From Methylococcaceae bacterium (lineage in GTDB: Bacteria; Pseudomonadota; Gammaproteobacteria; Methylococcales; Methylomonadaceae): DNA of 40,427 nt. The first letter of the stretch is position 1, and the number at the start of each line of letters is the position of its first letter. The position numbers were made by a program, and so were the translations under genes. The notes below the pieces were generated by a model. The model made no database searches. It was given only the letters and a program-made list of their open reading frames with translations, and was not told the origin of the DNA. This document shows, one piece after another, positions 1,132 through 12,702 of the stretch. The stretch spans positions 1-40,427 of the forward strand of contig BJHG01000013.1 in NCBI GenBank assembly GCA_014191975.1, in the 5' to 3' direction.

Positions 1132-2613
1132 ATGTCATTGCAAACTTTTAACCTGTTTTCGCTTACCGGAAAAATGCGGATTCTGCACGCTTCGTGGCTC
1201 GCGTTTTTTATAACGTTTGTTGTTTGGTTCAATCACGCGCCGTTGATGATGGCGATTGCGGAATCGCTGCATTTGAGCAAGTCCGAAATTAAAACCATCT
1301 TAATTTTAAACGTCGCGCTGACCATTCCCGCGCGGATTGTGATTGGTATTTTGGTGGATAAATTCGGGCCCAAACGCACTTATTCGACGTTGCTGGCGTT
1401 GGGCAGTATTCCTGCATTTATGTTTGCGTTTGCGAATAATTTTGAGCAATTGGCATTGGCGCGGTTTTTATCGGGTTTTATCGGCGCAGGTTTTGTGATT
1501 GGCATTCGATTAGTCGGCGAATGGTTCCCCGCAAAACAAGTCGGGATTGCCGAAGGGATTTATGGCGGTTGGGGCAATTTTGGTTCAGCCGCTGCCGCTG
1601 GCGTGTTGCCGATATTGGCATTAACATTCGGAGGCGCAGACGGTTGGCGTTATGCGATTGCCGCGACGGCCGTAATGTCGTTGGTTTATTCGGCAATTTT
1701 CTATTTTAGCGTTTCCGATACACCCAAAGGTTCCACCTATTTCAAACCCAAAAAAGCCGGCGCAATGGAAATCACCAGCGTAGGCGATTTGTGGTTTTAT
1801 ATTTTCATGACGATGCCACTTTACGCGACGTTGACGTTGTTAACGTGGAAATTATCGTCCGCACCAACGGGGAATTTATTGTCGATGCCCATCGCAACAG
1901 TGATTTATGTAGGCATTTGGTTGATGTATTTTTACAACGTTTACAAAATTTTCCACGTTAATTCTGAACATTTAAAACAACCGATTGAAGAAATTCACCG
2001 CTACAAATTCAAACAAGTTGCCGTTCTCAATTTAGCGTATTTCATCACGTTTGGTTCGGAATTAGCCGTCGTGTCCATGTTGCCGCTATTTTTCTTCGAT
2101 ACGTTTCATGAATCGCAAGGCGTAACGATGGTTCAAGCGGGATTATTAGCGGGAAGTTTTGCATTTATCAATTTGGTGGCCCGTCCAATGGGCGGTTTGT
2201 TGAGCGATAAATTTGGACGCAAACTGTCGTTGAGTATTTTCGTTTTAGGTTTGGCGTTGGGCTATTTTGGAATGTCGCAAATTGACGCGCAATGGTCATT
2301 ACCCGCAGCGGTTTTATTAACGATGACGTGTTCGTCTTTTGTATCGGCGGGATGTGGCGCGGTGTATGCGATTGTGCCGTTAATCAAACGTCGCATGACG
2401 GGACAAATTGCGGGAATGGTGGGCGCGTATGGCAACGTGGGCGGCGTATTATTCTTAACGATTTTATCTTTTGTGAATTCAAATGTATTTTTCACAACCA
2501 TTGCGTGCGTTGCACTGGTGATTGTGGGTTTCATTCAATTTATCGACGAACCCAAAGGTCACATGGTTGAAGTTCAGGAAGATGGAACGGTTGAAATGAT
2601 TGAGTTGAGTTAG
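1132..2613 (+). CDS. narK: NarK/NasA-type MFS nitrate/nitrite transporter
   Basis: 493 aa multi-TM protein; [50 protein letters not shown] and the GGWGNFG / GAYGNVGG nitrate-signature-like segments. Confidence 0.88.
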
Positions 2614-4334
2614 TGTTAAAACTAAAAATACTAGTCAGTGTCGCCAGCGACAAAGGCATAAAACCCCGCAACGAAGATTTTGTCGGCACACATTTTCCCG
2701 ACGGTTCGGAATTAACATTAAAAGGCGCAGTCGCCGCGATTGCCGACGGAATGAGCGGCAGCGAAGCGGGTCAACAAGCCAGCCAATGTTGCGTCGTCAG
2801 TTTTTTAGCAGATTATTACAGCACGCCCGATTCGTGGTCAGTGAAACACGCCGCGCAGAAAATTTTATCCGCCACTAATTCGTGGCTTTATAGTCAAGGT
2901 CAAGCGCGTTATCAATCCGCAAAAGGCATGGTCAGCACGTTGAGTTTGATTGTTTTTAAAGCGACCACCGCCCATTTATTTCACATTGGTGATTCTCGAA
3001 TTTACCGTTTACGCGCGGGGAATTTAGAACAATTAACACGCGATCATCGAGTTTGGGTGTCGAGCGATAAAAGTTATTTGAATCGTGCAATGGGAATCGA
3101 CCCGAGTTTGGAAGTCGATTATCAAGCGATTTCGTTAGAATTAGGCGACGTATTTTTGATGACGACCGACGGCGTGCATGATTTTATCGATGAAAAATCG
3201 ATGAAAAAATTGCTGCAAAGTGACCCAGATTTGAACGTTGTGGCACATCGTTTTATTCAAAAAGCCAGCGACAATAACAGCGACGATAATTTAACCTGTC
3301 AAATTCTGTGCGTGACGGAATTGCCCGAAATCAAAGAAGACGCAATTATGCGTTCACAAACGGCATTGCCTTTTCCGCCGCCGTTATCGATTGGCGACAA
3401 ATTAGACGGTTATCAAATCATTGCCGAACTTCATGCAAGCAAACGCACGCAAATTTATCAAGCGGTTGACATCGATTCGGACGAAATGGTGGTGTTAAAA
3501 ACGCCGTCTATTTTGTACGACGACGACACCAATTATATTGAAAATTTTCTGCATGAAGAATGGGCGGGAAAACGTTTGAATCACGCGAACATTTTGAACG
3601 TGTTAACGCCGAATCATGCCAGAACGCGGTTGTATTATGTGACGGAGTTTTTGGACGGAAAAACTTTGCGCGAATGGATTGAAGCGAATCCAAAACCTGA
3701 TATTAAAATCGTCGTCAAAATCATTGAACAATTGGTGAAAGGCTTGCAAGCGTTTCACCGAATGGAAATGTTACACCAAGATTTAAAACCCGAAAACGTG
3801 TTAATTGACGCAAATGGGGGGGTGAAAATTATTGATTTTGGTTCGGTGAAAATTGCTGGCATTGCGGAAATCAGTCCGTTGTATTCCGACGAAGAAGAAA
3901 ATGTGTTGGGAACGTTGAATTATACAGCGCCAGAATCTCACGCAGGACAACGTGGTATAATGAAATCAGATTTATTTTCGTTGGGTGTAATTGCTTATGA
4001 ATTGTTGAATGGCGCGTTGCCGTTTGGTGATACATTGCCCGATAAACCGACGGCAGCACATTTTGCAAAATTGATTTATGTGCCGAGTTCGCAGCATAAC
4101 GAAATGATTCCAAACTGGATGGATGGCGCGATGCGTAAAGCGACTGCAATCAATCCTGCGCTGCGTTATGACACATTATCTGAATTTTTGTACGATTTTA
4201 CGCACCCGAATTCGGCGTTTTTGAAAGCCGAAAAGTTTGTGCCGTTAATCGAACGAAACACGACGTTATTTTGGAAAATAACCGCGTTACTTTTACTTAT
4301 TATGAATCTTATTACTCTGTATCAACTTGTTTGA
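2613..4334 (+). CDS. Bifunctional PP2C-type protein phosphatase / Ser-Thr protein kinase with C-terminal TM helix
   Basis: PP2C motifs (IADGMSGSEAGQQAS, GDSRIYRLR, TTDGVHDF, DDNLTC) followed by kinase motifs (VVLKTP, HQDLKPENVLID, IIDFGSV) and terminal FWKITALLLLIMNLITLYQLV; GTG start overlapping the narK TAG. Confidence 0.9.
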   Translation: MLKLKILVSVASDKGIKPRNEDFVGTHFPDGSELTLKGAVAAIADGMSGSEAGQQASQCCVVSFLADYYSTPDSWSVKHAAQKILSATNSWLYSQGQARYQSAKGMVSTLSLIVFKATTAHLFHIGDSRIYRLRAGNLEQLTRDHRVWVSSDKSYLNRAMGIDPSLEVDYQAISLELGDVFLMTTDGVHDFIDEKSMKKLLQSDPDLNVVAHRFIQKASDNNSDDNLTCQILCVTELPEIKEDAIMRSQTALPFPPPLSIGDKLDGYQIIAELHASKRTQIYQAVDIDSDEMVVLKTPSILYDDDTNYIENFLHEEWAGKRLNHANILNVLTPNHARTRLYYVTEFLDGKTLREWIEANPKPDIKIVVKIIEQLVKGLQAFHRMEMLHQDLKPENVLIDANGGVKIIDFGSVKIAGIAEISPLYSDEEENVLGTLNYTAPESHAGQRGIMKSDLFSLGVIAYELLNGALPFGDTLPDKPTAAHFAKLIYVPSSQHNEMIPNWMDGAMRKATAINPALRYDTLSEFLYDFTHPNSAFLKAEKFVPLIERNTTLFWKITALLLLIMNLITLYQLV

Positions 4335-6045: not shown

Positions 6046-7524
6046 TTACGGTTTCACAGTAGAATCACCTTTCGGTCCCTTATCACCTTTATCCCCTTTA
6101 ACACCTAGATTGCCTTTTGAACCGGGCTCTCCTTTGGCGCCAGCATCGCCTTTTGGACCAGGATCACCTCTAAAGCCTTGATCACCTTTTGGACCTTGAT
6201 CACCTTTAAAGCCTTGATCACCTTTCACACCTTGATCACCTTTTGGACCTTGATCGCCTTTTGGACCTTGATCACCTTTTACGCTATCGCCTTTAGTACC
6301 TTGCTCACCTATTGGCCCTTGATCACCTTTAGGTCCTGGATCGCCCTTAAATCCTGGATCACCTTTAGGTCCTAAATCACCTTTAAAGCCTTGATCACCT
6401 TGTACGCCTTGATCACCTTTCAAGCCTTGGTCGCCTTTCAAACCTTGATCACCTTTCAAGCCTTGGTCGCCTTTTTGTCCTTTAATACCTTGTGGACCTT
6501 GATCACCTTTCACACCTTGATCACCTTTCACACCTTGAGGTCCTTGTACGCCTTGAAGTCCTTGTTCACCTTTGGAGCCGACATCACCTTTCACACCTTT
6601 GATACCTTGAATACCTTGATCACCTTTATCTCCTTGATCGCCAGTATCCCCTTTTGGTCCAGGGATGCCTTCTATTCCTGATATTCCTTTAATACCTTTA
6701 TCGCCTTTTGGTCCAGGGGGGCCTTCTTTACTTACGACTTTATCAATCCAGCTATAAATACGCTTTTCCAATGATCCATCCGCATGTAAATATAGATGCC
6801 CCTCATTTTCTATCTTAACTTGTTGATAATAAGAGTTTTTCTTTCCTGCGACCTGACGATCACGCGCACTTTCGACTACATTTAGCAGATCCTCTGAACC
6901 ATAAACATCTAGCATAGGCAGCCTAGATTTTGATATGAATGATAGGACTTGTATATTTGGATCCTTTGTTTCTGGAACGGGCAAACTAATGGTAATCAAC
7001 GCATTTACACCCAGTGTTTGTTCCGACAACATATAACTTGCCATCAATCCGCCTAAACCATAACCAATGACAACGATTCTTTCAGATTTTTCTTTTTTAG
7101 CGAATTTAATCGCCTCCAATAATCTCGCTTTAGCTTCAGGAAAAAGCGAATAATAATCTTGAGTGGTTGCGCCTTCTTCACGCAAAGGCATCTGTACCGA
7201 CAATGTTGCCCAATGATGATTAGGAAAAAATGATCGAAGCGGCTTAATCACGGTATCCAAATTTGGATGCCCGCCAATATCATGTAGAAGAATAATTACA
7301 CCATCACGATAACTTTGAGATGTATCCGTATAAAGATTTAAAAACTTTTTTCCACCGGTCTCAAGCCAAACGATATGCCCTAGTTTTAAGGTTTGCTGAA
7401 TATCATTTACGAATACAGTCTCTCGCTTTTCATCACTTGCGAGGCAAGCTAACGCACTACATAAACAAATCGCAAGACTTGCCTGAGTGAATTTTCTCAT
7501 GACTACAAATGAATTATCTTTCAT
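6046..7524 (-). CDS. Secreted DUF3530-like alpha/beta-hydrolase-fold protein with C-terminal collagen-like Gly-X-Y domain (copy 1)
   Basis: N-terminal signal peptide; DGVIILLHDIGGHPN...WATLSVQMPLRE...IVVIGYGLGGLMASYML; then about 225 aa of GPKGDQG-type triplets. Confidence 0.85.
   Translation of the reverse strand: MKDNSFVVMRKFTQASLAICLCSALACLASDEKRETVFVNDIQQTLKLGHIVWLETGGKKFLNLYTDTSQSYRDGVIILLHDIGGHPNLDTVIKPLRSFFPNHHWATLSVQMPLREEGATTQDYYSLFPEAKARLLEAIKFAKKEKSERIVVIGYGLGGLMASYMLSEQTLGVNALITISLPVPETKDPNIQVLSFISKSRLPMLDVYGSEDLLNVVESARDRQVAGKKNSYYQQVKIENEGHLYLHADGSLEKRIYSWIDKVVSKEGPPGPKGDKGIKGISGIEGIPGPKGDTGDQGDKGDQGIQGIKGVKGDVGSKGEQGLQGVQGPQGVKGDQGVKGDQGPQGIKGQKGDQGLKGDQGLKGDQGLKGDQGVQGDQGFKGDLGPKGDPGFKGDPGPKGDQGPIGEQGTKGDSVKGDQGPKGDQGPKGDQGVKGDQGFKGDQGPKGDQGFRGDPGPKGDAGAKGEPGSKGNLGVKGDKGDKGPKGDSTVKP
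6049..6723 (-). repeat. Collagen-like triplet-encoding repetitive DNA (copy 1)
   Basis: 9-bp-unit repeats encoding G-X-Y (GDQGPKGDQGVKGDQGFKGD...). Confidence 0.9.
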
Positions 7525-7557
7525 GATTTATAATGTTAAGTAACGACAAAATCATTA

Positions 7558-7752
7558 CTACACGTCTCTAACATTGTGCAATTCAATATTAATAAAACAA
7601 ATAGGCATATTTTCTCTTGATTCTGGATAGTTTCCTTTATTTACAATATCACCTTTTAGATTCTTATATTGCTCAATATAAACAGAATACGACTTATCTT
7701 TTTTTAAGAAAAACAAATTGGAACGTCGAATAATCGGAAAAAATATTTTCAT
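7558..7752 (-). CDS. Small hypothetical ORF between the collagen-like paralogues; uncertain
   Basis: ORF only (64 aa); no recognised family. Confidence 0.2.
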   Translation of the reverse strand: MKIFFPIIRRSNLFFLKKDKSYSVYIEQYKNLKGDIVNKGNYPESRENMPICFINIELHNVRDV

Positions 7753-7811
7753 ACATTTATAAAAGTAAGATTAAGTAATTGAGTTATTATGGTTTTACAA
7801 CGAAATCAATT

Positions 7812-9281
7812 TTATTGACCTTTATCGCCTTTTTCACCTTTATCGCCTTTTTCACCTAGATTGCCTTTTGAGCCAGGATCCCCTTTATCGCCTTTATCGC
7901 CTTTTGAACCTGGATCACCTTTTACGCCTGCATCCCCTTTTACGCCCGTATCGCCTTTTACGCCCGTATCGCCTTTTGAACCTGGATCACCTTTGGGTCC
8001 TTGATCACCCTTTGGCCCCTGATCACCTTTAAGGCTATCACCTTTAATGCCTTGCTCACCTATTGGTCCAGCGTCACCTTTTGCTCCAGGATCACCTTTG
8101 GGTCCTGCGCTACCTTTGGGACCTGGATCACCTTTGAAGCCAACATCGCCTTTCACACCTTGGTCGCCTCTCAAGCCAGCATCACCTTTCGCGCCTTGAG
8201 TACCTTTTTGTCCAGGTTCACCTTTTTGTCCCGCAACACCTTGTAGTCCTTGGTCACCTTTCACGCCTTGATCACCCCTAACGCCTTGCTGTCCTTGTGC
8301 GCCTTGCTGTCCTTGCTCACCTTTTGGACCAGCGTCACCTTTTTCACCTTTTATGCCTTCAAAACCTTGATCGCCTTTCTCACCTTGGTCGCCTGAATCA
8401 CCTTTCGGGCCAACACGTACTTCACGCACGTCACGTACTTGTTTTGTCCTACTCGAAGAAAGACTGCCACTTCCTGCTATGCCGTCAAGCACTTTTTTAT
8501 CAATCCAGCTATAAATGCGCTTTTCTAACAATCCATCCGCATGCAAATATAAACGCCCTTCGTTTTCGATTTTAATTTGTTGATAATAAAGATTATCTTT
8601 GCCTGCAAGCTGACGGTCACGTGCACTATCGACTACACTTTCCAGATCCAATGATCCATAAATATCTAGCATTGGCAGTTTAGATTTTGCTATAAATGAC
8701 AGTACTTTTGTATTAGGGTCGCTAGCTTTTGGAACAGGTAAACTAATGGTTATTAGCGCATTTACACCTAGTGTTTGTTCATCCAATATGTAGCTTGCCA
8801 TCAACCCTCCTAAACCGTAACCAATAACAACGATTTTTTCGGATTTTTCTTTTTTAGCAAATTTAATCGCTTCTAATAATCTCGTTTTGGCTTCAGGAAA
8901 AAGAGGGTAATAATCTTGACTACCTGCATTTTCTTCACGCAAAGGCATCTGCACCGACAATGTTGCCCAATGATGGTTAGGAAAAAATGTACGAAGTGAT
9001 TTAATTACCGCCTCCCGATTTGGATGCCCACCGGCATCATGTAGGATAATAATTACGCCATCACGGTGACTTTGTGTCGTATCCGTGTAGATATTTAAAA
9101 ATTTTTTTCCATCCGCTTCAAGCCAAACAGCATTCCCTAAATTTAAGCCTTGTTGAATATCGGTTGCAAATACATTCTCACGGCTGGTATCAGTTGCCAC
9201 GCACGTCAATGACCCACTTAAACAAAGAGCCAGACTTACTTGAGTTAATTTTTTAATAGATACAAATGAATTATTTTTCAT
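7812..9281 (-). CDS. Secreted DUF3530-like alpha/beta-hydrolase-fold protein with C-terminal collagen-like domain (copy 2, tandem paralogue); likely start MKNNSF at 9281 (ORF opens at 9296)
   Basis: Strongly similar to copy 1 over the whole N-terminal domain (DGVIIILHDAGGHPN, WATLSVQMPLREE, IVVIGYGLGGLMASYIL), then G-X-Y triplets. Confidence 0.85.
   Translation of the reverse strand: MKNNSFVSIKKLTQVSLALCLSGSLTCVATDTSRENVFATDIQQGLNLGNAVWLEADGKKFLNIYTDTTQSHRDGVIIILHDAGGHPNREAVIKSLRTFFPNHHWATLSVQMPLREENAGSQDYYPLFPEAKTRLLEAIKFAKKEKSEKIVVIGYGLGGLMASYILDEQTLGVNALITISLPVPKASDPNTKVLSFIAKSKLPMLDIYGSLDLESVVDSARDRQLAGKDNLYYQQIKIENEGRLYLHADGLLEKRIYSWIDKKVLDGIAGSGSLSSSRTKQVRDVREVRVGPKGDSGDQGEKGDQGFEGIKGEKGDAGPKGEQGQQGAQGQQGVRGDQGVKGDQGLQGVAGQKGEPGQKGTQGAKGDAGLRGDQGVKGDVGFKGDPGPKGSAGPKGDPGAKGDAGPIGEQGIKGDSLKGDQGPKGDQGPKGDPGSKGDTGVKGDTGVKGDAGVKGDPGSKGDKGDKGDPGSKGNLGEKGDKGEKGDKGQ
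7815..8411 (-). repeat. Collagen-like triplet-encoding repetitive DNA (copy 2)
   Basis: GPKGDSGDQGEKGDQGFEGIKGEKGDAG... G-X-Y repeats. Confidence 0.9.
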
Positions 9282-9449: not shown

Positions 9450-11162
9450 ATGCTGGAATTTATCACTTTACTTCGCCAACGCTATCAAATCGTTTTGAAT
9501 TCAAATTTAAATTCAAACGAAATGCAAAATTATCAACACTCCTTTGAACAATTAACACTTGCCGAAGCTTTTTTTCGTAAAGGTCAACTTGTCAAAACAT
9601 CACCATTACACATAGTGATTATCGGACCCACGCAAGTAGGTAAAAGCTCGCTCACGAATGCTTTTCTACAATCGCAAAATGCTGGCGTGAGTCCCTTAGC
9701 TGGTTATACCGTTCACCCACAAGGTTTTTGTCATAATTTAGACTTATTCGATTGTAAAGATTTAGCAGATTATTTCATTCCATTTGTTCAAATTTCAAGC
9801 GAGAATTTGCGTAAAAATTGTTTTAATAATTATTCACTCGAAAAAACTGAAAATGCATCGCATTTTTTACCTCCTGCCATTTTTTGGGATACCCCCGATT
9901 TTGATTCCATCGATTCCACTGATTATCGAGAAGGGGTTTTGAAAACTATTGCGCTTGCTGATGTTATTATTCTAGTCGTCAGCAAAGAAAAATACGCAGA
10001 CCAAACTGTGTGGGACACGTTAAAAATTATCGAACCGTTGCGCCAACCTACGCTCATTTGCGTTAATAAATTAAATGAGGATTCGGAAGCGATTATTTTG
10101 GAATCACTCAAAGAAAAATGGCACGATTATCGGCGTGATATTTTTCCAGAAATCATTTCTTTGCTTTATCAACAAACCACAAAATCTCCTGAAATTCCGG
10201 AATCAAAACAGCATATTTTGTTTGAATTAACGAAAAAAGTGCAACGTGAAAAACAGAAACAACATGAACAAAAATTAGTACAAACGCATTGGCAAGAATG
10301 GACAAAACCATTACGCGTTGAACATGAGATTTATAGCGCGTGGCAAACATTGGTTGATGACGTAATGGGGCAAACATTAAAAAATTATGAACACGATTAT
10401 TTAAATCATCCGTATCACTACGAAACCTTTCAACAAGCTATTGCCGAGTTATTGTTATTGCTCGAAATTCCTGGCGTGGCCAAAGTTATGATGACAACAC
10501 GAAAAGTCTTACTTTATCCACTGAAATTAGTGCGGCGATTGGGTAAAAGTCGAAATCATCCTCAGCGCAGCCATGAAATGACGGTTTTAACATCTGCGTT
10601 AAATCACACATTGACTGAATTGGCACACGAATTATTGGATAAAAATACACATTCAATGTGGCGAGAGTTAAGTGAGCAATTACGCAAAAATCGAGCAGCT
10701 ATTTTAAATGAATTCCAGCACGAGACTGAAAATTATCATCAAAATTTTCAGCAAAATGTCGAACGTGCCGCGCAAGGACTTTATTCAAAATTAGAAGAAC
10801 AGCCGCTGGTTTTAAATACGCTTCGTGCTACTCGAATTACCGCTGACGCTGTAGTTGTTGCGTTAACACTTTACACGGGCGGGATTGGCTTACATGATTT
10901 AGCAATTGCGCCAGCGATGTTGATGTTGACAAATTTACTGACTGAAAGTGTAATTGGCAGCTACATGAAAAAAATCGAAACTGATTTAAAGGCACAGCAA
11001 CTGGCCGCAGTTAAACTGCAGGTTTTCACACCACTTGCACAACGTTTGCACGCTTTACCTCAACATCTAAAAACTAAAACGCATTTTGCGATTTCACCTG
11101 AACAACTGGCAATCGCCGAAACTAAATTTAATGAAAAACCGCATGGCTTACGATTACTCTGA
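9450..11162 (+). CDS. Dynamin/Era-like P-loop GTPase with C-terminal hydrophobic region (GTPase pair, member 1)
   Basis: G1 GPTQVGKSS, G3 WDTPDFDS, G4-like NKLN; hydrophobic segment VVVALTLYTGGIG...LAIAPAMLMLTNLL. Confidence 0.75.
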   Translation: MLEFITLLRQRYQIVLNSNLNSNEMQNYQHSFEQLTLAEAFFRKGQLVKTSPLHIVIIGPTQVGKSSLTNAFLQSQNAGVSPLAGYTVHPQGFCHNLDLFDCKDLADYFIPFVQISSENLRKNCFNNYSLEKTENASHFLPPAIFWDTPDFDSIDSTDYREGVLKTIALADVIILVVSKEKYADQTVWDTLKIIEPLRQPTLICVNKLNEDSEAIILESLKEKWHDYRRDIFPEIISLLYQQTTKSPEIPESKQHILFELTKKVQREKQKQHEQKLVQTHWQEWTKPLRVEHEIYSAWQTLVDDVMGQTLKNYEHDYLNHPYHYETFQQAIAELLLLLEIPGVAKVMMTTRKVLLYPLKLVRRLGKSRNHPQRSHEMTVLTSALNHTLTELAHELLDKNTHSMWRELSEQLRKNRAAILNEFQHETENYHQNFQQNVERAAQGLYSKLEEQPLVLNTLRATRITADAVVVALTLYTGGIGLHDLAIAPAMLMLTNLLTESVIGSYMKKIETDLKAQQLAAVKLQVFTPLAQRLHALPQHLKTKTHFAISPEQLAIAETKFNEKPHGLRLL

Positions 11163-12702
11163 ACTTTTACAGCGCACTGAAAACTGGGCGCAGCAGGCTT
11201 ATGAACTGGGTTGGATTAGTGAAGTAAATCCAACTTCTTTTTTGCAGAAAGAAAAAAATCCACTTTTTGAAAATACAATGCGTCCTTTAATTGTTGCTTT
11301 CATGGGTGGAACAGGCGTAGGTAAAAGTGCATTATTAAATCGACTCGCTGGTAAACCCATTGCAAAATCGGGTGTGGCGCGTCCAACGTCAAAAGAAATC
11401 ACGATTTTTCACCATCAAAATATTACGTTACCGCAATTACCGCTGACCGATATTCGTGTTGCCAATCACGATGATGATTCACAAAAAAACGTGGTTTGGA
11501 TTGACATGCCTGACTTTGACAGCACTGACACACATAACAAAGAGCTCGTTTTAAGTTGGTTGCCACATATTGATATCTTAATTTATGTTGTCAGCCCAGA
11601 GCGTTATCGAGACGAAAAAGCATGGCGATTATTACTTGCCGAAGGTGCAAATCATGCGTGGTTATTTGTAATGAATCAGTGGGATAGAGGACAAATAGAA
11701 CAAGCAGACGATTTTGAGAAACAATTGCACGTTGCGGGATTTGACGCGCCAATAATTTTTAAAACGTGCTGTGACATTCTATCGAATTTAAACGACGAAT
11801 TTAATGAATTAGCTGAAACATTAACGTCGCTCGCTACACAAAAAACTGTCGAACAATTAGAGCAGCGTGGCGAACACATTCGTATTAATGCGCTGCATAA
11901 TCAGTTACAAAATTATCTTCTTCAATTTGGTAATACAGCGGCTTTGAAAAAACTGCACTCACATTGGCTTTCAAATTGGAAAAGTACTGCCACGCAATTA
12001 CAACAAGGCTTTACGTGGCAACTTCAGCCCTTAGCGCAACAATTTGCAAAACTGTCACCATTTGAAAAAGGCATTGAGTGTCTTTGGGATCATTGGGCTA
12101 AAACCCGTTTTGATGATACTTTGAATGTATTGGTCATTGACACGCAAAATTTCGGATTACCAACTAAGCCGTTAGAAATCGAGCTTTTAAGCTTGCGTGA
12201 AAAGGCACAAAAACAGTTTACTTCCAATACAGAACTTCAAACGCGGCGAGCCATCACAGAGCGTGGGAATTTAGTGCAACGCACATTATTAAAACTCGTG
12301 GGAATAGCAGAAATTATTTTACCGTTAGCAGCTATGAGCTGGGTTGGCTTTCAAGTCGTAAATGGCTATTACGAAAGCAATCAAACACATGACCATTATT
12401 TGAATCTCGATTTTGCGATTCATAGTACGTTGGTTTGTGGCTTATCATGGCTGGTGCCATTTTTCATTTTGAAAAAATGCCAGCCATCCTTAGAAAAATG
12501 TGCATTACGCGGCTTAAATAAAGGGATTTTACAAAGTTTAGAGAACTTGAATCAGGAAGTAATTATGGCGATTGAGCAATTCGAACAGCAACGCGCAACG
12601 CAGTTACAAAATGCAAATGCGTTATTAACATTGTGTGAATCGATTACATCTGAAAAGATTGAATTTGAGCGAAATAGCACATTAAATAGAATGATGATTT
12701 AA
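11143..12702 (+). CDS. Dynamin/Era-like P-loop GTPase with C-terminal TM hairpin (GTPase pair, member 2); probable start MAYDYSELL at 11143 (ORF opens at 11086)
   Basis: G1 GGTGVGKS, G3 IDMPDFDS, G4 NQWD; TM segments IILPLAAMSWVGFQVV and LVCGLSWLVPFFIL. Confidence 0.75.
   Translation: MAYDYSELLQRTENWAQQAYELGWISEVNPTSFLQKEKNPLFENTMRPLIVAFMGGTGVGKSALLNRLAGKPIAKSGVARPTSKEITIFHHQNITLPQLPLTDIRVANHDDDSQKNVVWIDMPDFDSTDTHNKELVLSWLPHIDILIYVVSPERYRDEKAWRLLLAEGANHAWLFVMNQWDRGQIEQADDFEKQLHVAGFDAPIIFKTCCDILSNLNDEFNELAETLTSLATQKTVEQLEQRGEHIRINALHNQLQNYLLQFGNTAALKKLHSHWLSNWKSTATQLQQGFTWQLQPLAQQFAKLSPFEKGIECLWDHWAKTRFDDTLNVLVIDTQNFGLPTKPLEIELLSLREKAQKQFTSNTELQTRRAITERGNLVQRTLLKLVGIAEIILPLAAMSWVGFQVVNGYYESNQTHDHYLNLDFAIHSTLVCGLSWLVPFFILKKCQPSLEKCALRGLNKGILQSLENLNQEVIMAIEQFEQQRATQLQNANALLTLCESITSEKIEFERNSTLNRMMI

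Follow-up and report, generated by a model that had tools for sequence, protein, structure and literature searches.

Two neighbouring minus-strand genes in a 40,427-nucleotide stretch of DNA from a Methylococcaceae bacterium (the window) each encode a fusion between an N-terminal DUF3530 domain and a C-terminal collagen-like tail, as seen from their open reading frames (ORFs) and Pfam matches. In our assessment, there is about an even chance that the products are exported trimeric rods, approximately 55-65 nm long and carrying three non-catalytic binding heads, with a design like that of the Legionella collagen-like protein Lcl. The genes, hereafter copy A (492 aa) and copy B (489 aa from ATG), lie where the initial annotation placed them and are organized as follows.

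6046-7524, minus: copy A, DUF3530-collagen fusion gene, 492 aa (ORF; Pfam PF12048 and PF01391)
7438-7524, minus: copy A apparent signal peptide, about residues 1-29 (by eye; CLA|SDEKRE conserved across relatives)
6742-7437, minus: copy A DUF3530 head, residues 30-261, predicted alpha/beta-hydrolase fold (Pfam, AlphaFold2 model, Foldseek)
7051-7065, minus: copy A nucleophile elbow GYGLG, residues 154-158, Gly replacing Ser (head alignments)
6061-6723, minus: copy A Gly-X-Y domain, 49+24 triplets, ~63 nm if triple helix (triplet count)
6277-6282, minus: copy A VK break, two residues, within the Gly-X-Y domain
7812-9281, minus: copy B, DUF3530-collagen fusion gene, 489 aa (ORF; Pfam)
8499-9281, minus: copy B signal peptide and DUF3530 head, residues 1-261 (Pfam, head alignments)
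8808-8822, minus: copy B nucleophile elbow, Gly at the nucleophile (head alignments)
8412-8498, minus: copy B linker, 29 residues, not Gly-X-Y
7821-8411, minus: copy B Gly-X-Y domain, 42+23 triplets, ~56 nm if triple helix (triplet count)
8028-8033, minus: copy B LK break, two residues, within the Gly-X-Y domain
9450-12702, plus: two dynamin-like/MMR_HSR1 GTPase genes, next to the DUF3530 gene and divergent from it in most of the genus (Pfam, synteny; context only)

Both domain assignments of the initial annotation are borne out by Pfam. The DUF3530 matches (E = 6e-27 for copy A and 2e-24 for copy B; whole-protein scores of 95.2 and 87.0 bits) are above the gathering cut-off of 29.8, and the collagen matches to PF01391 (E = 1.5e-36 and 2e-32; 124 and 111 bits) identify genuine Gly-X-Y tails. 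Each protein starts with basic residues, about 12 hydrophobic residues and then CLA|SDEKRE, which by eye appears to be the signal peptide proposed earlier. The heads of the two copies are 77% identical over 261 aa and, as previously noted, are more conserved than the tails, with 44 of 212 sites differing in the heads versus 63 of 153 aligned non-Gly sites in the tails. Elsewhere in the window, an MFS transporter gene is followed, with a one-base overlap, by a gene with PP2C phosphatase and protein kinase domains (1132-4334).

Predicted fold and nucleophile position of the head

An AlphaFold2 model of the head, built from 22 related heads (mean pLDDT 75, pTM 0.76), has as its best Foldseek matches in the PDB alpha/beta hydrolases such as Est1E and dienelactone hydrolase (E ~1e-9, TM ~0.6). 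The fold proposed in the initial annotation is thus supported by prediction, but the catalytic nucleophile of a hydrolase is missing: the nucleophile elbow, a strand-to-helix turn, reads GYGLGG in both copies, without Ser, Cys or Asp, and Gly156 stands where Ser is expected in 22 of 22 aligned heads. Across a broader set of 70 heads, 63 have Gly at this position and Ser occurs in four distant heads only. Asp206 and Asp212 are retained in the aligned heads, and His243, the likely catalytic His, is present in most heads and is Arg in copy B. Loss of the nucleophile is well supported, and with Gly in its place the head is, judging from sequence, probably a pseudo-enzyme rather than a working hydrolase. 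A published report on DUF3530 describes the family as having no catalytic triad and as probably non-enzymatic (PMC11878206); with the Gly substitution, this suggests that ‘hydrolase’ here denotes a fold and not an activity.

An extracellular esterase or similar enzyme on a collagen stalk, using a different nucleophile, would be compatible with the predicted fold, with Asp212 and with the His243 kept in most heads, but the Gly shared by the 22 aligned relatives and by 63 of the 70 heads compared, the Arg at position 243 of copy B and the description of the family as lacking a triad make it very improbable, and we rejected the active-enzyme reading on the nucleophile position. Collagen-tailed acetylcholinesterase (AChE) of the animal synapse also carries an alpha/beta-hydrolase fold on a collagen stalk, formed by ColQ; there, enzyme and collagen are encoded by separate genes and the enzyme is active, and the resemblance to the window proteins is one of design only.

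Repeat structure of the tails and selection on Gly-X-Y

The tails comprise 73 triplets in copy A and 65 in copy B, close to the earlier estimate of 66-74, and each has a single two-residue break (GDS-VK-GDQ in copy A, GDS-LK-GDQ in copy B). This GDS-xK-G break sits 23-26 triplets before the end in five proteins, and both window proteins stop 2-4 residues past the last triplet. Both copies have the long uninterrupted Gly-X-Y region typical of bacterial collagen-like proteins. At the collagen triple-helix rise of 0.286 nm per residue, the tails would form rods of ~63 nm (copy A) and ~56 nm (copy B), if triple-helical. The tail begins right after the last conserved motif of the head: tail-less relatives finish there in a short variable stretch (YSWIDKITNRNTTESL...), and tailed proteins turn to Gly-X-Y within ~8 residues of the same motif (YSWIDKVVSKEGPPGPKGD...). 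Copy A runs almost directly into Gly-X-Y, and copy B has its linker at this point.

Comparison of related tails indicates that the glycines are under constraint. Between copy A and its counterpart in genome G204 (aligned with one gap), the 73 Gly sites show no residue change and 39 synonymous codon changes, and residues differ at 41 of 160 non-Gly tail sites. Between G151 and G205, 82 Gly sites have 1 residue change and 45 synonymous changes, with changed residues at 35 of 176 other sites; copy A and G192 give the same pattern, from which copy B deviates only at the tail start, where the 29-residue linker replaces the first triplets. As glycines are kept while their codons change synonymously and the X and Y residues change, selection for Gly-X-Y is well supported at the sequence level. 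Lys/Arg-Gly-Asp/Glu steps, which make interchain salt bridges in collagen and are expected to stabilize triple helices, occur 27 times in each copy, compared with 14.4 (copy A) and 15.0 (copy B) expected from triplet shuffling (14.4 ± 2.1 for KG[DE]-type steps, with a maximum of 23 in 2,000 shuffles). All full-length tails have about twice the shuffled expectation of such steps. This excess and the constraint on glycine bear only indirectly on whether the tails form a trimeric triple helix. The tail charges balance at 33:33, with no Cys.

Tandem repeats of 18 and 36 bases run through the tails, tail length ranges from 63 to 82 triplets across tailed proteins and related genomes lack the tail, all of which would fit a tail that arose incidentally, through slippage of the repeat in a C terminus tolerant of such change, and that forms no functional triple helix. 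We consider this origin improbable, given the retained glycines, the excess of salt-bridge steps and the reading frame kept intact in all full-length tails. Two plus-strand ORFs (6391-6681 and 8001-8246) were rejected as genes, being antisense shadows of the collagen repeat; such ORFs, rich in TLITF/AFRS and also seen at locus L018 (2317-3021, minus), could be mis-annotated as genes.

Distribution and history of the tailed gene

The host assembly is 2.1 Mb in size and belongs to a genus represented by 18 genomes. Its named close relatives are Methylococcales metagenome bins, several of them from lakes, and one is the isolate UBA10906; a clade of that name has been reported among lake methanotrophs (PMC11192741). 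In view of these relatives, a deep-sea mussel symbiont, considered on account of the genome size, was rejected. The DUF3530 head is present in 143 of 311 genomes of the order, and head-only genes are common. A DUF3530 gene occurs in 17 genomes of the genus, 9 of them without the tail; the tailed form is found in 8 of the 18 (the window genome, G151, G192, G201, G204, G205, G207 and G211), with the G201 tail cut off after 13 triplets, where its contig ends. In the order searched, DUF3530 and collagen in one protein, the combination that the initial annotation suggested looking for, was found only in this genus among the frames long enough to carry a tail. Outside the genus, none of 24 long-frame candidates from the order, family and class has a collagen run behind the head; in a class-wide sample of 369 genomes, the long frames read from the matches listed contained no additional tailed case. 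A plasmid search with the head returned no match. Apparent collagen matches at G207:C165 were rejected as the antisense of a VDPVVP repeat.

The genus also has a second collagen-like gene, found at G000:C10:28672 (locus L010, 1150-1749) and on G205:C210 (L175), in which a signal peptide is directly followed by Gly-X-Y (GDKGPAGPAGPVGAKG); the C-terminal region of the L010 protein has no Pfam match.

Two tailed copies in tandem are unique to the window lineage. In the head tree, copies A and B are sisters (98/91), joined by G204 and G192 (100/99), and the tree of the neighbouring GTPase likewise places the window genome with G204/G192 (95/96). In the GlnD tree, the G204/G192 group goes with the tail-less G206 (99/96), and the window genome groups with G212, G210, G207, G203 and G202 (100/99). 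G212 has the gene order argJ-lipoprotein-DUF3530-metF, with which G210 is compatible across two contigs; the window genome has argJ-lipoprotein-metF without DUF3530 (L176 2150-3457, G000:C8; compared with L117 and L110) and ~34 bases from lipoprotein to metF, which suggests that a native tail-less DUF3530 copy has been lost. Copy B occupies the position held by the lipoprotein in G204 and G192, and the lipoprotein gene of the window genome is on another contig than the DUF3530 pair. Taken at their simplest, these single-gene trees and metagenome assemblies suggest acquisition of the tailed locus by recombination from a G204/G192 relative, its duplication, and loss of the native tail-less gene; the tailed form seems to have moved between lineages.

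In a second tailed group (G151, G201, G205 and G211), a tail-less copy adjoins the tailed gene. G205 has a second tailed DUF3530 protein (L106 3129-4583, G205:C270), on a long branch and with a degraded tail start, encoded on another contig than the G205 tandem pair. Two further genes recur beside DUF3530. A 144-aa lipoprotein gene (L103 5480-5914 and others) adjoins it in nearly all relatives and is named only DUF6694-like, as it falls below the Pfam cut-off for DUF6694. The GTPase pair is a conserved neighbour across most of the genus, and a functional link with DUF3530 is possible.

Possible export and function, and related systems

From these observations, we infer trimerization, a surface location beyond the outer membrane and a ligand for the head. 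In the proposed sequence of events, each protein would be exported by Sec through its signal peptide, and its head, with an alpha/beta-hydrolase fold and no nucleophile, would bind rather than cleave. Three such C-terminal tails would coil around one another to form a collagen triple helix ~55-65 nm long, stabilized by Lys-Gly-Asp/Glu salt bridges in the absence of hydroxyproline, so that the rod carries its three binding heads together at one of its ends. The rod would most likely exit the periplasm and serve attachment, matrix or capture, either at the cell or beyond it. The genome encodes the type II secretin GspD (E = 1e-156), although its presence does not make the fusion protein a substrate. 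No trimerization domain, anchor or secretion signal other than the signal peptide was recognized in either protein, and lipoprotein anchoring was rejected by eye, as the cysteines lie outside a fitting lipobox. It also counts against the proposed account that 9 of the 17 genomes of the genus with a DUF3530 gene manage without a tail.

The periplasm is narrower than 55-65 nm, so that a rod of this length could be housed there only in a flat orientation, and we found no precedent for a periplasmic collagen. Both points weigh against the chief alternative, a periplasmic envelope protein in which the head keeps its ancestral periplasmic role and the triple helix, rather than being an extracellular stalk, serves as a spacer or organizer along the envelope. 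We hold this alternative to be possible but doubtful: the majority of DUF3530 proteins are tail-less and may function in the periplasm, head-only genes are widespread in the order, no surface anchor was recognized in the fusions, and a conserved DUF3530 neighbourhood with lptD in Pseudomonas is described in the family report (PMC11878206). The Pseudomonas aeruginosa DUF3530 protein PA0599 resembles the window proteins in its domain, missing nucleophile and apparent signal peptide, whereas it and other head-only relatives lack the collagen tail. PA0599 is listed among culture-supernatant proteins (PMC13411936), in favour of the exported-rod reading, although this may reflect lysis.

The exported-rod reading has its closest counterpart in Lcl, an experimentally established trimeric lollipop and type II secretion substrate; Methylomonas and Methylobacter are also reported to have relatives of this DUF1566-collagen type (PMC11162425). 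Lcl and the window proteins have in common charged Gly-X-Y repeats of the GPKGDK type and a globular domain, and Lcl is exported, as the window proteins would be. In Lcl, however, the C-terminal domain is DUF1566 and the N terminus holds an amphipathic helix, whereas the window proteins have an N-terminal DUF3530 head, nothing after the tail and no Pfam match to DUF1566. Streptococcus Scl, Burkholderia Bucl and Bacillus BclA/Clp similarly combine a globular domain with a Gly-X-Y stalk, and several have roles in adhesion and biofilms (PMC8968730, PMC4565658, PMC4319854); their partner domains and anchors belong to other families, with no DUF3530 reported in the literature searched. Bacterial collagen-like proteins are known, including in Methylococcales with another partner domain (PMC11162425). 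The earlier remark that this head is not known as a described partner agrees with the openly available papers whose mentions of DUF3530 were read, in which no collagen fusion is described, and with the titles and abstracts searched for collagen-like proteins together with methanotrophs or hydrolase folds, which contain no such pairing.

On the proposed account, the tail would have been joined within the genus to an old family of exported proteins, and the tailed gene then exchanged between lineages and duplicated in the window genome. Adhesins and phage-exposed surface proteins are often swapped between lineages. We advance only tentatively the broader idea that a pseudo-hydrolase was recruited as the binding head of a collagen stalk, and that lake methanotrophs thereby have a new class of surface protein, one that passes from lineage to lineage and takes the place of the native tail-less gene. 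The genus offers a case in which a predicted collagen triple helix has been added to an old domain family, and in which a tailed gene can be compared with a tail-less one occupying the same position. The fusions may help to show what DUF3530, a domain widespread in Gammaproteobacteria, does, and in what way uncultured methanotrophs of lakes make contact with surfaces or other cells.
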